From contig JAIWOG010000055.1 of assembly GCA_020217035.1 (NCBI GenBank), forward strand, positions 1 to 10,000: a stretch of 10,000 bases of DNA, written 5' to 3'. This document shows positions 879 to 5,778 of this stretch, piece by piece. Source of the stretch: Magnetospirillum sp. (GTDB taxonomy: Bacteria > Pseudomonadota > Alphaproteobacteria > Rhodospirillales > Magnetospirillaceae). The notes beneath the pieces are model-generated. The model did not search any database and was not told the DNA's origin. It saw only the letters and a program-made list of their open reading frames with translations. The translations under genes and the position numbers were made by a program. The stretch's first letter is position 1, and each line of letters opens with the position of its first letter.

Positions 879-1085
879 ATGGACGAAAACCGTCTGACCG
901 AACTGGAAAGCCGCCTGGCCCACCACGAACACATGGCCGAGGAAATGAGCGAAGTGCTGGCCCGCCAGCAAGCCGAGATCGACCATCTGACCCTGATGGT
1001 GCGGCGGTTGCTGGACCGGGTGCTGACCATGGAATCCGACGGTGGCCGCTCGCCGGCGGACGACCGTCCGCCGCCGCATTATTGA
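879..1085 (+). CDS. slyX: SlyX family protein
   Basis: A 68-residue protein of the SlyX family, a widespread small family whose exact function is unknown. The ATG at 879 was chosen because the family starts directly with the conserved helix; the reading frame is open further upstream but crosses the ppdK terminator. Residues about 1-52 form a charged, heptad-like helix (NRLTELESRLAHHE, ARQQAEIDHLTLMVRRLLDRV) typical of the coiled-coil body, and the chain ends in the characteristic PPPHY. No strong Shine-Dalgarno sequence is visible. Its last 7 bases overlap the 3' end of the convergent rhomboid gene. The family call rests on length, helix pattern and the terminal PPHY motif. Confidence 0.9.
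   Translation: MDENRLTELESRLAHHEHMAEEMSEVLARQQAEIDHLTLMVRRLLDRVLTMESDGGRSPADDRPPPHY
1054..1073. other. GC-rich hairpin between convergent slyX and rhomboid genes
   Basis: An 8-bp perfect stem (CGGCGGAC at 1054-1061, GTCCGCCG at 1066-1073) with a 4-nt loop lies inside the last codons of slyX, just before the convergent overlap. Neither strand has a T-run after it, so it is not a classical terminator. It could still protect 3' ends or slow polymerase for both transcripts. In GC-rich DNA a stem this size may also arise by chance. Confidence 0.3.
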
Positions 1086-2185
1086 AGCGGAGCCTGTTCG
1101 CACAACCCATAGGTGATCAACACCAGACGCAGGGTGTGGTTGCGTCCTTTCAGGCAGATTTCCCGAGTCAGCAACCGAGCCTCGGCCCGGTCGCCCTGTT
1201 CCAGGCGGACCGAGGCCAGCATGGCCCGCAACTTCCATTCGGTGTCGCGGGTGAACAGCGCCGACAGGATGTCGCGGTCGGCCAGGGCGTCGCGCAGCAA
1301 GGTCTCGGCGCCGCCCAGGTCGTCGCGGTTGATCAGCACCCGGGCCATCATCATGCGGGCGCGCGGGTCGCGGGGGTAGCGCTGGATCAGGGTCTCGGCC
1401 AGGGCATCGGCTTCTTGGTCGGTGCGCGGCAGGATGTCGTTGGGGATCACCTGTACCGCCAGCCGATAGGATTCGAAAGTGCGGCCGACCAGCACGAAGG
1501 CCCCCAGGGCGGCGACGGTTCCCAGAACCGTCAGCAGCGCCGCCGGCTTGCAGGCGCGGGGCATTTCCCGATCCGGTGGCCAGCGTCGCAGCATCACCAA
1601 TCCCAGGGTGGTGCCGATGAAGGCGCCACCGCCATGGGCGGCGGCGTCCACCTGGGAAATGGCGGCCAAGGGGGCCAAGGCCGGCAGCAGGACCACCGCC
1701 AGGTTCCATTGCACCATTCGGCGTTCCGGCCCCGCCGGCTGGCGGAAGCTGACGACGAAGGCGGCGGCCAGCAGCGCCATGATGCCACCCGACGCGCCCA
1801 CCGCCACCATCTCGGGCGGGTTGGCGGCGATCGAGGCCACCGCGCCGATCAAGGCGCCGGCGAAGAACACAGCCAGGAAGCGGGCCATGCCGATACGCGG
1901 CTCCAGCAGCCTGCCGGCGAACATCATGGCGAGGACGTTGAGCCCAAGGTGGAAGATGTCGGCATGCAGGAACGGCGCGGTCAGCAGGCGGTGCCATTCG
2001 CCGTCATGCAGGACCTGCGGCGCATGCAGGGCCCCCAGCGCCAGCAAGGTCTTGACTGACGGTGCCAGCCACGGGCCCGATGGTTCGATGGCCAGCACAT
2101 GTTCGGTCACGAACACCCCGGTCAGAACCATCGCCAGGGCCAGGGCGGCGCGTGGAATCGTGTTGACCGAGGGGGCGGGAATCAT
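1079..2185 (-). CDS. Rhomboid family intramembrane serine protease with C-terminal helical extension
   Basis: A 368-residue membrane protein. Rhomboids cleave transmembrane helices within the membrane using a Ser-His dyad. The sequence shows H79-x3-N83 (FHLGLN) in an early membrane helix, the nucleophile motif GASGG with S132, and H184 in AAHGGGAFIG, so all key residues are present. About six or seven hydrophobic segments lie within residues 14-235, including one after the dyad at 214-233. Residues about 240-368 are soluble and helix-rich (DALAETLIQRYPRDPRARMM, AMLASVRLEQGDRAEARLL), resembling TPR-like repeats, and probably serve as an adaptor. The start is the ATG at 2185-2183, which overlaps the cobB stop as ATGA; the frame stays open upstream but there it is only the shadow of cobB. 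Translation is probably coupled to cobB. The substrate is unknown. Confidence 0.92.
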   Translation of the reverse strand: MIPAPSVNTIPRAALALAMVLTGVFVTEHVLAIEPSGPWLAPSVKTLLALGALHAPQVLHDGEWHRLLTAPFLHADIFHLGLNVLAMMFAGRLLEPRIGMARFLAVFFAGALIGAVASIAANPPEMVAVGASGGIMALLAAAFVVSFRQPAGPERRMVQWNLAVVLLPALAPLAAISQVDAAAHGGGAFIGTTLGLVMLRRWPPDREMPRACKPAALLTVLGTVAALGAFVLVGRTFESYRLAVQVIPNDILPRTDQEADALAETLIQRYPRDPRARMMMARVLINRDDLGGAETLLRDALADRDILSALFTRDTEWKLRAMLASVRLEQGDRAEARLLTREICLKGRNHTLRLVLITYGLCEQAPLQ

Positions 2186-3579
2186 CGCCCGCCGTCCCTG
2201 ACCTGACGGCAGAATTGGGCGAAGCGCGGCCCCCACGGGCTGGCGCCGACGCTTCGCATATGGGCGTAATTGGCCAAGGTGTTGCCGACGACGATGCCGT
2301 CGCGGTGCTGGCCGATACCGGCGCCGCGCACCACCTCGTAGGCGAATCGCGGCTCGCCGTCGATGTTTTCCAGCCGCGAATGGTGAAATTCGTGGGCCGG
2401 GGTGATGCCGGGGCCGCTTTCCAGGCGTGGCCAGGGGAAATCGGCGGTTTCGCGCAGGCGGACATAACCGCGCCCTTGGGGGCGGGCATGCATGACCGCG
2501 TCGCCGGGGATCAGCCCCACCATCTGGCGGCGCTGGCCGTTCCAGATGATCGCGCGAGACAGATACATCAGCCCGCCGCATTCGGCGTAGACCGGCATGC
2601 CGCCCCGCGCCTTGGCTGCCAGGTCGGCGCGGAAAGACGCATTGGCCTCCAGCGCCTCGGCCTGGGTTTCGGGAAAGCCGCCGCCGATGAACAAGCCGTC
2701 CAGGTCGTCAGGCAAGCGGGGATCGGTCAGGGCGTTGACGAACACCAATTGGGCGCCGGACTGACGCAGGGCTTCCAAATCGTCGGCGTAATAGAAGCCG
2801 AAGGCCGGATCGCGCACCACGCCGATGCGCAAATCGGCGGCCGGGGCGGGGGGCGCCAAGTGGGGCGACACCTCGACGGGCAGGGTGTCGCGGGCCAGAT
2901 CCATCACCGCGTCCAGGTCGACGCAGGCGGCCACGTGGTCGCGCAAGGACGCGATGGCGGTCTGGGCCTCGGGGGCTTCGTTGGCCGGAACCAGTCCCAG
3001 ATGACGTTCCATGATGCGCATGGCCCCGGCCCGCTGCACCGCGCCCAGGACAGGGATGCCGGTATAATGGTCCACCACCTCGCGCAGTTTCTTTTCGTGT
3101 CGCGGCCCGCCCACTTTGTTCAGGATCACGCCGGCGATGCGCAGGCGGGTGTCGAATGTGCGATAGCCCAGCAGCAAGGGCGCGATGCCGCGGGTCATCC
3201 CCGACGTGTCCACCACCAGCACCACCGGCGCCTCCAGCCAGTGCGCCAGGCTGGCGGTGGAGTTTGACCCTTCCAGGTCGACCCCGTCGAACAGCCCCTT
3301 GTTGCCCTCGATCAGGCTGATGTCGGCGTCGCGGCTGGCGCTTTCGAACAATTGAGTGATGTGCTTGGGTGGCTGGGTGTGGAAATCCAGGTTGCGGCAC
3401 TGCCGCCCGGCGGCAGCGCCCAGCCATTGCGGGTCGATGTAGTCGGGGCCTTTCTTGAACGGCTGCACCACCAATCCCCTGGCCGCCAAGGCGGCGACCA
3501 GTCCGACGCTGATGGTGGTCTTGCCCGACGATTTGTGGGCGGCCGAGATCAGCAGGCGGGGGGCGGCGCGGAAGCTCAT
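2182..3579 (-). CDS. cobB: Cobyrinate a,c-diamide synthase
   Basis: This 465-residue cytoplasmic amidotransferase amidates the a and c side chains of the corrin ring using ATP and glutamine (CobB of the aerobic route acts on hydrogenobyrinate, CbiA of the anaerobic route on cobyrinate). Seen: an N-terminal P-loop domain with AAHKSSGKTT (residues 13-22) and DISLIEGNKGLFDG, then a class I glutamine amidotransferase domain with the nucleophile in YAECGGLMYL (C334) and HEFHHS (from H396) toward the end. Length is normal for the family. The ATG at 3579-3577 overlaps the upstream stop as ATGA, and no Shine-Dalgarno sequence precedes it, so translation probably depends on reinitiation after the trpD2-like gene. 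No other cobalamin gene is in the window, so whether the strain has the full pathway cannot be judged here. Confidence 0.95.
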   Translation of the reverse strand: MSFRAAPRLLISAAHKSSGKTTISVGLVAALAARGLVVQPFKKGPDYIDPQWLGAAAGRQCRNLDFHTQPPKHITQLFESASRDADISLIEGNKGLFDGVDLEGSNSTASLAHWLEAPVVLVVDTSGMTRGIAPLLLGYRTFDTRLRIAGVILNKVGGPRHEKKLREVVDHYTGIPVLGAVQRAGAMRIMERHLGLVPANEAPEAQTAIASLRDHVAACVDLDAVMDLARDTLPVEVSPHLAPPAPAADLRIGVVRDPAFGFYYADDLEALRQSGAQLVFVNALTDPRLPDDLDGLFIGGGFPETQAEALEANASFRADLAAKARGGMPVYAECGGLMYLSRAIIWNGQRRQMVGLIPGDAVMHARPQGRGYVRLRETADFPWPRLESGPGITPAHEFHHSRLENIDGEPRFAYEVVRGAGIGQHRDGIVVGNTLANYAHMRSVGASPWGPRFAQFCRQVRDGGR

Positions 3580-4595
3580 GCTTGGCCCGGCAATTTGCTT
3601 TTGACGCGGTCGCGCCACAGGACCTGGGCGGCGCCTTCCGCCTCGGCGACGCTGGCGGCGCGGCCGGAATAGCGCAGCACCACCGCCATGGTGCCGGCGA
3701 TGGCAGCCGCCGCCATCTCGTCGGCATCGGCGCCGCTCCACAGGGCTTTCAGGCGCGACAGGTCCAGGCTTTCCTCCTTGTCGCGGGTGCCCGACACCAG
3801 GGCCGGCCAATCCTCGGTCCCCGGTTGGCCGTCCTTCAGGAAGAACACCTCGCAGGGCTTTTCCGGCCGGCGTTCCACCTCGCCGCCGTCCCCCTTGAAG
3901 GCGGCCATGGCCTGTTCGCCCATCAGCCGCGAGCCTTCCTGGTGCACCGGCAGATAGGGCGGGTGGGTGACGCCGTTGACGGAAAAAGCGGCGTTCAGCG
4001 GGTTGACCATGCGGGCCACGGTGTGGATGGGCGAACGCAGGCCCAGAAGCTGGCGCAGCGCCATCACCTTGTGCAGCGCCGGCGACATGTGTTCCAGCGT
4101 CATATAGGCGAAGTTGTGGGCGGCCAGGTGGGCGCCGGCCTGGGTGAAGCTTTCCGCCACCGGCACGCCCAGGAAGCGCAGCACCTCGGACGTGTAGACG
4201 CGGCCGGCGGTGTGACCCTCGGCGCCGTGCATGAACACCTTGATGCCGTGCTGGGCCAGGCACAGGGCGGCCAGCACGTAATAGGGCAATTGCCGCGACT
4301 TGCCGGCATAGGACGCCCAGTCCACGTCCACGGCGGGAAGGTCACCCGGTAGGTCCAGGTGGTCCTTGATGCCCAGGGCCAGGCCGGCGGCTTCCTCGGG
4401 CAATTCGGTCTTGACCCTGAGCAGGCACAAGAAGGCGCCCAATTGCGCCTGTTCCACCTGACCTTGCATGATCATGCCCATGGCGGCGCGGGCTTCGTCC
4501 AGGCTGAGCGGCCGCGACAGGTTCGGCCCCTTGCCCAGGATGCGGACATATTGGGCGAAGGGATGTTCGGATGGGACGGGCGCGGAATGGGACAC
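3576..4595 (-). CDS. TrpD2/YbiB-like glycosyltransferase family 3 protein
   Basis: A 339-residue protein with the fold of anthranilate phosphoribosyltransferase: an N-terminal helical bundle (LSLDEARAAMGMIMQGQVEQ, QLGAFLCLLRVKTELPEE) followed by the large alpha/beta domain. The PRPP-binding motifs of true TrpD are changed: there is no GTGGD loop, KHGN is replaced by FMHGAEGHTAGRVYTSEVL, and the acidic Mg-binding DE motif is not evident. This matches the TrpD2 class, of which E. coli YbiB is known as a nucleic-acid-binding member encoded with dinG in a LexA-controlled unit. A tryptophan role is therefore unlikely. The GTG at 4595-4593 is chosen because AGGAGG lies 8 nt upstream; the longer ATG start at 4691 would run through the operator region. 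It is the first gene of the operon with cobB and rhomboid. Its function is inferred only, either a nucleic-acid-linked role or an unknown transferase. Confidence 0.85.
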   Translation of the reverse strand: MSHSAPVPSEHPFAQYVRILGKGPNLSRPLSLDEARAAMGMIMQGQVEQAQLGAFLCLLRVKTELPEEAAGLALGIKDHLDLPGDLPAVDVDWASYAGKSRQLPYYVLAALCLAQHGIKVFMHGAEGHTAGRVYTSEVLRFLGVPVAESFTQAGAHLAAHNFAYMTLEHMSPALHKVMALRQLLGLRSPIHTVARMVNPLNAAFSVNGVTHPPYLPVHQEGSRLMGEQAMAAFKGDGGEVERRPEKPCEVFFLKDGQPGTEDWPALVSGTRDKEESLDLSRLKALWSGADADEMAAAAIAGTMAVVLRYSGRAASVAEAEGAAQVLWRDRVKSKLPGQA

Positions 4596-4603
4596 GGGAC
4601 GGG

Positions 4604-4609
4604 CCTCCT
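4604..4609 (-). promoter_or_regulatory. Ribosome binding site AGGAGG deciding the GTG start of the trpD2-like gene
   Basis: On the minus strand a perfect AGGAGG sits 8 nt before the GTG at 4595-4593. No start codon further upstream in the frame has a comparable site. Confidence 0.88.
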
Positions 4610-4610
4610 G

Positions 4611-4628
4611 GTTGGATTTGTTTCCAAC
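4611..4628. repeat. Perfect inverted repeat GTTGGA-N6-TCCAAC abutting the ribosome binding site
   Basis: GTTGGA (4611-4616) and TCCAAC (4623-4628) form an exact 6-bp dyad with a 6-nt spacer. In the minus-strand transcript the hairpin would end 1 nt before the AGGAGG of the trpD2-like gene. It could be an operator for a dimeric regulator, or an mRNA stem affecting ribosome access or stability. Confidence 0.55.
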
Positions 4629-4659
4629 ATAATACGCTAATATAGCAACGGTCTCGCAA
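4629..4659 (-). promoter_or_regulatory. Possible promoter of the trpD2-cobB-rhomboid operon
   Basis: On the minus strand TTGCGA (4659-4654) is followed after 19 nt by TATTAT (4634-4629), a good -10 match with a spacer slightly longer than ideal. The location in the AT-rich divergent region and the lack of a better pair support it. The LexA-like box lies about 15 bp upstream of this -35. Confidence 0.35.
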
Positions 4660-4666
4660 GGGTGGA

Positions 4667-4695
4667 TTGCTATGGAACATATCATGAACATAAGC
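4667..4695 (+). promoter_or_regulatory. Possible promoter of the radical SAM gene, spanning the LexA-like box
   Basis: TTGCTA (4667-4672), a 17-nt spacer, then ATAAGC (4690-4695). The LexA-like box fills the spacer, a typical operator position for repression. The -10 is mediocre and transcription would begin only a few bases before the ATG at 4708, giving a very short leader. An alternative pair, TTGTTT (4618-4623) and TATAGC (4641-4646) with a 17-nt spacer, would leave a longer leader and place the box downstream of the start site. Confidence 0.35.
4675..4689. promoter_or_regulatory. LexA-type SOS box, GAAC-N7-GAAC
   Basis: GAAC (4675-4678), seven bases, GAAC (4686-4689); read on the minus strand this is GTTC-N7-GTTC, the known LexA recognition sequence of alphaproteobacteria. 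It is part of a longer direct repeat, GAACATA at 4675-4681 and 4686-4692, with an 11-bp period, about one helical turn. It lies 18 bp before the radical SAM ATG and 79 bp before the GTG of the trpD2-like gene, so it could serve either direction. The match is exact in all eight fixed positions; binding is inferred. Confidence 0.72.
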
Positions 4696-4707
4696 TAGGA
4701 TGCGGTC

Positions 4708-5778
4708 ATGGACCACAGCATCACCCATCGTGGCGTCCGGGGCAATCCCGATGGCCGTTTCGAACGTCACAACCGCCAAGCGGTGGATGACGGCTGGGAC
4801 TTGGGTCAACCAGACGACCTGCCCCCCTTGCGGACCAGCGTGCAGGTGGACGCCAGCCGCTCGATCATCACCCGAAACGATTCCCCCGACGTACCGTTCG
4901 ACCGGTCCATCAATCCCTATCGCGGCTGCGAGCATGGCTGCGCCTATTGCTTCGCCCGTCCCGGCCATTCCTATCTGGGGCTGTCGGCGGGGCTGGATTT
5001 CGAAACCAAGTTGTTCGCCAAGCCCGACGCCGCCAAGCTGTTGGAAAAGGAATTGCGCAAGCCGACCTATCGGCCGGCGCCCATCGCCTTTGGCACCAAC
5101 ACCGACCCCTACCAGCCCATCGAGGACAAGTGGCGGGTGATGCGCCAATGCCTGGAAGTGCTGCGCGATTTCAACCACCCGCTGACCATCGTCACCAAGG
5201 GTCACCTGATCACCCGCGACCTGGACATCCTGGCGGCCATGGCCGAACGCCGGCTGGTGCATGTGGGCATCTCGGTGACCACCCTGGACCGCGACCTGTG
5301 CCGCAAGTTGGAACCCCGGGCCAGCGTGCCGGCGGCGCGGCTGTCGGCCATGCGGCGGTTGGTCGCCGCCGGGGTGCCGGTCACCGCCATGGTGGCGCCG
5401 GTGATCCCGATGATCACCGATCCCGAGCTCGAACGCATCCTGGAAGCGGTGGCCGACGCCGGGGCGAGTGGCGCCGTCTATATCCTGCTGCGCTTGCCGC
5501 ACGAGGTGAAGGACCTGTTCGCCGATTGGCTGGACCAGCATTTCCCCGACCGTGCCGGCCATGTGCTGTCGCTGTTGCGGCAGCAGCGCGACGGCCGGCT
5601 GAACGACCCGCGTTTCGGCGACCGCATGCGCGGCGAAGGTCCCTTTGCCCAGATGCTGTCACAACGTTTCCGCCTGGCCTGCCGCAGGCTGGGATTGAAC
5701 CAGGACCGCGGCGGGGATTTGGACGTGGGGCAGTTCAGGCCGCCGCCCAAGGCGGGGGACCAGCTTAGTCTGCTTTAG
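4708..5778 (+). CDS. PA0069 family radical SAM protein (SplB-like)
   Basis: A 356-residue radical SAM enzyme. The 4Fe-4S ligand motif C74-x3-C78-x2-C81 (CEHGCAYC) follows INPYRG, as is usual in this family, and is followed by FARPGHSYLGLSAGLDFETKLF and AFGTNTDPYQPIE in the TIM-barrel core. The family is annotated as DNA-repair photolyase-like through its relation to spore photoproduct lyase, but for the PA0069/Rv2578c branch no substrate is firmly established. The ATG at 4708 has AGGA (4697-4700) 7 nt upstream and is the first start that keeps the conserved N-terminal region. Length is normal for the family. It is a single-gene unit on its strand, divergent from the trpD2-like operon, with the LexA-type box just upstream; this supports a role in the DNA-damage response. 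Confidence 0.93.
   Translation: MDHSITHRGVRGNPDGRFERHNRQAVDDGWDLGQPDDLPPLRTSVQVDASRSIITRNDSPDVPFDRSINPYRGCEHGCAYCFARPGHSYLGLSAGLDFETKLFAKPDAAKLLEKELRKPTYRPAPIAFGTNTDPYQPIEDKWRVMRQCLEVLRDFNHPLTIVTKGHLITRDLDILAAMAERRLVHVGISVTTLDRDLCRKLEPRASVPAARLSAMRRLVAAGVPVTAMVAPVIPMITDPELERILEAVADAGASGAVYILLRLPHEVKDLFADWLDQHFPDRAGHVLSLLRQQRDGRLNDPRFGDRMRGEGPFAQMLSQRFRLACRRLGLNQDRGGDLDVGQFRPPPKAGDQLSLL

Follow-up and report, generated by a model that had tools for sequence, protein, structure and literature searches.

A putative LexA operator conserved upstream of a PA0069-family radical SAM gene and inverted in one clade of Magnetospirillum

The window analysed here is the whole stretch of 10,000 nucleotides from a Magnetospirillum draft genome. 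Within it, two divergent transcription units are separated by a gap of 112 bp (4596-4707), with trpD2 on the minus strand (GTG at 4595) and a radical SAM gene on the plus strand (ATG at 4708). The gap contains a direct repeat in the form of an alphaproteobacterial LexA-binding site, and the question raised by this locus is whether this repeat serves as an operator and, if so, for which of the two flanking units. The features considered are as follows.

1079..2185, minus strand: rhomboid-TPR protein (weak match), with its ATG overlapping the cobB stop
2182..3579, minus strand: CobB, cobyrinic acid a,c-diamide synthase (NF002204, 432.6 bits, cut-off 254), with its ATG overlapping the trpD2 stop
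3576..4595, minus strand: TrpD2-like protein, PRK09071 family (NF006564, 387.4 bits, cut-off 257), with a GTG start and AGGAGG at 4609-4604
4629..4634, minus strand: predicted trpD2 -10 element TATTAT, within a block, CAT[AG]ATACGCTAATATAG, that is conserved between the window's genome and five sister genomes
4675..4689, plus strand: putative LexA operator GAAC-ATATCAT-GAAC, a perfect GAAC-N7-GAAC direct repeat with conservation, inverted relative to most orthologues
4696..4701, plus strand: predicted -10 element TAGGAT of the radical SAM gene, at positions -12 to -7 and 6 nt before the ATG
4708..5778, plus strand: PA0069-family radical SAM protein of 356 aa (NF033668, 516.9 bits, cut-off 360; Radical_SAM, PF04055)

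The intergenic motif

The letters at positions 4675-4689 of the plus strand, GAACATATCATGAAC, are the sole exact GAAC-N7-GAAC match within the window. They match all eight fixed positions of the GTTC-N7-GTTC direct repeat, so that the reading of this site as fitting an SOS operator, made in a first-pass annotation of the window, was confirmed. The same annotation had put the chance matches expected in the gap at about 0.003, and the density of the motif in the genome (112 in 3.54 Mb) also gives a value of about 0.003. Genome-wide, the motif count is uninformative as evidence for the site and was discarded: the motif is not enriched, with 112 exact matches against 154 for the reversed control pattern. 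When up to one mismatch was allowed, four matches were found in the window against 5.6 expected. The site stands far beyond chance because orthologous upstream regions share the box (84/90, see below), and not because of how often the motif occurs.

Conservation upstream of the radical SAM gene

Conservation was examined in an order-level sample of 90 genomes out of the 130 that score above the family cut-off, taken mostly by score order and with the window included (upstream loci L157-L186 and L207-L266). In 84 of these 90 regions, the 300 nt preceding the PA0069-family radical SAM gene contain an exact box in one or the other direction. Controls applied to the same regions, namely the half-sites at spacings N4-N6 and N8-N12 and seven permuted half-sites with N7, gave 0-4 hits each. 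Each of the six genes without the exact box has a site with one mismatch no more than 250 nt away, the one in L224 lying at an unusual place. These sites are weak evidence, because other spacings yield such sites in 5-17 of the 90 genes within 100 nt, and they were set aside as support for the missing genes. In the window's own family, the exact box is found at 19 of 25 loci.

A collection of named genomes showed the exact box at 42 of 80 loci, or of 78 once L041 and L070, which have less than 200 nt of upstream DNA, are left out, with controls giving 0-7/78; the highest of these was spacing N11, with its hits at scattered positions. Judged by their record titles, the 42 box-bearing loci are alphaproteobacterial except for L033, the title of which is odd, L095, which is unplaced, and L067 (Rhodanobacteraceae), where the box lies at -288. 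Only one-mismatch sites were found at L074 (Ruegeria, alphaproteobacterial) and L048 (unplaced). None of 35 loci from non-alphaproteobacterial or unplaced records carries the alphaproteobacterial box within 250 nt upstream, but six of the 35 have CTGT-N8-ACAG upstream (six control patterns, 0/35); the radical SAM gene therefore accompanies two unrelated LexA-type motifs. A xanthomonad-type LexA motif was identified at none of these 35 loci, using a search pattern that may be wrong.

Predicted promoter of the radical SAM gene

The layout around the start codon was analysed in 81 orthologues, namely those of the 82 with a forward box in which the start lies within 40 nt of the box (window excluded); as start we chose the first ATG in frame downstream of the box, or in one case GTG. 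A TANNNT element ending 4-8 nt before the start was found in 63 of the 81, compared with a mean of 10.4 and a maximum of 21 in 500 shuffles, and the profile across the set has T at -12, A at -11 and T at -7. A Shine-Dalgarno word at -16 to -5 occurred in none of the 81 orthologues (shuffle mean 3.3). The window itself reads TAGGAT, 6 nt, ATG, yet its AGGA at 4697-4700 would count as a Shine-Dalgarno word under the same rule. From the frequent TANNNT element together with the missing Shine-Dalgarno words, we infer a leaderless mRNA whose promoter has the operator at -33 to -19: the radical SAM transcript looks leaderless, with a predicted RNA start at or beside the ATG at 4708, and the operator would cover the -35 region and spacer of the predicted promoter. 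This layout matters because leaderless mRNAs are translated without a ribosome-binding leader.

The reading in which we place high confidence is that 4675-4689 is a LexA operator repressing the radical SAM gene at such a leaderless promoter, with the trpD2 operon having its own promoter and not being a direct target. LexA bound at 4675-4689 would block RNA polymerase by covering -33 to -19 of the radical SAM promoter, and DNA damage would release the gene through RecA-driven self-cleavage of LexA. The divergent trpD2-cobB-rhomboid operon would use its own promoter, the -10 element of which lies about 40 bp from the operator, and is most likely no direct LexA target. What the analysis shows directly is the sequence, its conservation, the protein families and the presence of a lexA gene in the genome, while operator binding, the transcription start, repression and induction are all what we infer.

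An inverted putative operator within the genus

The radical SAM gene is present in 10 of 13 genomes of the genus. The window's genome and five sister genomes possess an exact box at -33, in which the eight fixed bases are kept while the spacer varies (ATATCAT, AAAATAA in two genomes, AAAAAGC, AAAAGCA and AAAAGCG). Alignment of the gap among these genomes showed that the half-sites and the trpD2 promoter block are kept and that the stretch between them has diverged. The exact box is missing in the other four genomes with the gene (G001, G007, G009 and G010); these, as well as G160 of the same family, pair a left half AAAC with a right half GAAC at unchanged spacing, a near-site that overlaps a one-mismatch forward box in G001 and G009.

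Of the 84 exact boxes in the order, 82 take the form GTTC-N7-GTTC when read in the direction of the radical SAM gene, for the most part GTTCTTGWWWTGTTC. The opposite reading belongs to the window's genome and its five sister genomes, which form a single clade (support 100/100 in a tree of 29 rows). Among the individual loci, the inverted operator is seen at L116-L121 and overlapping near-sites at L122-L125 and L309, from related genomes. Because double sites occur in related genomes, the comparison suggests an inversion route through a GAAC pair that came to overlap the older GTTC pair, one of the two being lost afterwards. Tree support is weak on the branches that separate double-site from forward-box genomes and would order these steps, and one genome scored as forward, G212, possesses just a one-mismatch box.

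LexA and other boxes in the genome

The genome encodes a LexA protein scoring above the model cut-off, and an exact box was identified 57 nt before lexA. Another lies 25 nt before a gene for a Y-family polymerase (Pfam IMS over its cut-off, NCBIfam Pol IV models below theirs). Both come from 20 stretches picked by eye among 100 listed sites, which do not amount to a census, and many of the 20 fall inside reading frames. For recA, no exact box was found in the upstream stretch examined (L196).

Several other sites were noted in passing. The recA upstream region (L196, about 858-919) contains GAAC-N6-GAAC as well as near-sites with one mismatch (two of them) and with two mismatches. An exact box, GAACGATAAATGAAC, is located some 200 nt ahead of an mraZ reading frame (L193, 1054-1068; G000 C181:6453-6467) and could be due to chance; mraZ usually heads a division and cell-wall cluster. 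Exact boxes are also found at L188 (1128), L189 (1113), L190 (1148) and L191 (1148), two of them intergenic and two overlapped by opposite-strand reading frames alone. The reading frames near these four boxes gave one Pfam match, PG_binding_1 beside L191, and it is possible that the genes concerned are unnamed SOS genes.

The trpD2-cobB-rhomboid operon and alternative readings

The three genes on the minus strand overlap at their start and stop codons. The rhomboid-TPR assignment is weak: the Pfam matches of this protein (Rhomboid PF01694, 24.3 with a cut-off of 22.6; TPR_19, 28.6 with a cut-off of 25) were obtained with the piece 1079-1795 only. A tblastn search of the named genomes with the proteins of the window placed trpD2 and cobB beside the radical SAM gene in three of 80 loci, the first three listed, a count that may overlook distant cobB genes. 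We also searched the order for boxes upstream of NF006564 genes (70 of 109) and found them in four regions, three of which belong to linked genes of the genus and one to an unlinked gene. In two genomes of the genus (G001 and G009; L123 and L124), the gene directly upstream of the radical SAM gene resembles trpS by eye, with the G001 trpD2 lying beyond it.

The first-pass annotation had proposed one SOS operator shared by both units, so that LexA would repress the radical SAM gene together with the divergent trpD2-cobB-rhomboid operon. The box does sit in the sole gap between the two divergent genes, and in the window's genome and five sister genomes 45-46 nt separate its start from that of the trpD2 promoter block. 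There is also a precedent, given in that annotation and borne out by the accessible text of PMC10123104: in E. coli, LexA regulates an operon that contains dinG and ybiB, the latter encoding a TrpD2 protein. The two organisms have in common a TrpD2-type gene that is controlled by a LexA operator or lies near one; the E. coli gene shares its controlled operon with dinG, whereas the window's gene is divergent from the radical SAM gene and its product scores below the cut-off of the YbiB model (NF006005, 149.6 bits against 185). Where trpD2 is not linked to the radical SAM gene the box is nearly always missing, an exact match within 300 nt occurring in just one of 67 genes (at -282) and a match with one mismatch within 100 nt also in one of 67, compared with 3-6 of 67 for other spacings. 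G003, a genome of the same genus, has trpD2 and no box, and the radical SAM gene was not found in it. The near-box of G010 begins 97 nt from the start of the trpD2 block, not 45-46, and the trpD2 of G001 is some 1.2 kb distant from the radical SAM gene. With the predicted trpD2 -10 element at 4634-4629, the operator would occupy roughly -53 to -67 relative to the trpD2 start predicted from this element, upstream of the predicted core promoter. A shared operator is accordingly unlikely on these findings and was set aside: the trpD2-cobB-rhomboid operon is a neighbour that is probably not controlled by the operator. Conservation, to which the annotation had looked for a decision, upholds its proposal for the radical SAM gene (84/90 orthologues) and not for the trpD2 side (1/67 unlinked genes), and with this its suggestion that corrin amidation and an intramembrane protease take part in the DNA-damage response is not sustained.

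A variant of the shared reading, which we consider improbable, gives the inverted operator double duty: LexA would repress the radical SAM gene and modulate or activate trpD2-cobB-rhomboid from about -60, the inversion having come about through an overlapping double site whose traces persist in related genomes. A location at about -60 from the start is a typical activator position, and the LexA of R. sphaeroides reportedly has dual activity on recA. If this were true, DNA damage would switch the two units in opposite directions. That a different regulator with a similar direct repeat binds the conserved site is very improbable, given that the same motif precedes lexA and the Y-family polymerase gene in this genome and that six of the 35 non-alphaproteobacterial or unplaced orthologues bear the unrelated CTGT-N8-ACAG instead. 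The idea of a functionless chance match can draw on the genome's 112 exact matches, which are fewer than those of the reversed control, and would have to account for the box of 84 orthologues out of 90, where the controls reach 0-4, and for sister genomes in which the spacer changes and the fixed bases stay; its probability is accordingly minimal. The preferred reading thus remains that of an operator for the radical SAM gene.

The radical SAM enzyme

The nearest Magnetospirillum-labelled loci encode radical SAM proteins with 89% and 78% identity to that of the window, while L033, labelled Stygiobacter, has 79%. The first-pass annotation had described the gene as SplB-related. No spore photoproduct lyase model was among the NCBIfam matches of the protein at E 0.001, although the library presumably includes one, and a profile search of PDB sequences gave no spore photoproduct lyase chain at E 10; a fold search was therefore used. 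Among solved structures, those closest to the model of the enzyme (mean pLDDT 76) are spore photoproduct lyase chains (ranks 1-6, TM 0.51-0.56), in agreement with that description, the best being PDB 4fhc (E 2.3e-9, TM 0.56, 18% identity). Like spore photoproduct lyase, the protein possesses a CxxxCxxC motif, and the cysteines of this cluster (C74, C78 and C81) are the only ones invariant in 28 relatives. Spore photoproduct lyase uses a hydrogen-donor cysteine outside the cluster, which therefore has no conserved counterpart here. We would not name the protein a true spore photoproduct lyase, as the three cluster cysteines alone are invariant and neither sequence search gave a match to this enzyme. 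Its substrate is plausibly damaged DNA.

Relation to described systems

PA0069 itself is reportedly on the SOS list of P. aeruginosa. LexA control of splB has been predicted in alpha- and betaproteobacteria (Sanchez-Alberola 2012, PMC3323433), and for this reason the SOS link of the radical SAM gene is to be regarded as already known. What the window has in common with the system of PMC3323433 is an SplB-type gene with a predicted LexA-binding site in alphaproteobacteria; that study, in its accessible text, covered multi-chromosome species (among the alphaproteobacteria Rhizobiaceae, Brucellaceae and Rhodobacteraceae), without Magnetospirillum, and the same text makes no mention of leaderless promoters or inverted operators. 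In the Bacteroidetes, an SOS-regulated SplB radical SAM protein (COG1533) is described in PMC8565304, with other motifs and other repressors, so that an SplB-type radical SAM gene under LexA-type control is again the common element in the part of the paper available; the same part cites Cirz 2006 on P. aeruginosa. A radical SAM protein is also named in the core SOS regulon of Gram-positive bacteria in the available portion of PMC7739468, while splB is unmentioned in that of PMC1839093. A literature search for LexA paired with PA0069 found nothing. The splB of the 2012 prediction in alpha- and betaproteobacteria is likely to be the NF033668 family. Neither the leaderless layout nor the clade-specific inverted repeat was met in the accessible literature, for leaderless promoters within a limited search.

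Implications

What had been a guess about a single site becomes an SOS-type operator that is retained by 84 of the 90 orthologues sampled across the order and for which a promoter layout is proposed. The tempting link of corrin amidation and a rhomboid protease to the SOS response is removed as unsupported. With its inverted direct repeat, the window's clade is a natural experiment on whether the orientation of a LexA operator is of consequence. For the organism, the operator points to a radical SAM enzyme that is probably made when DNA is damaged.
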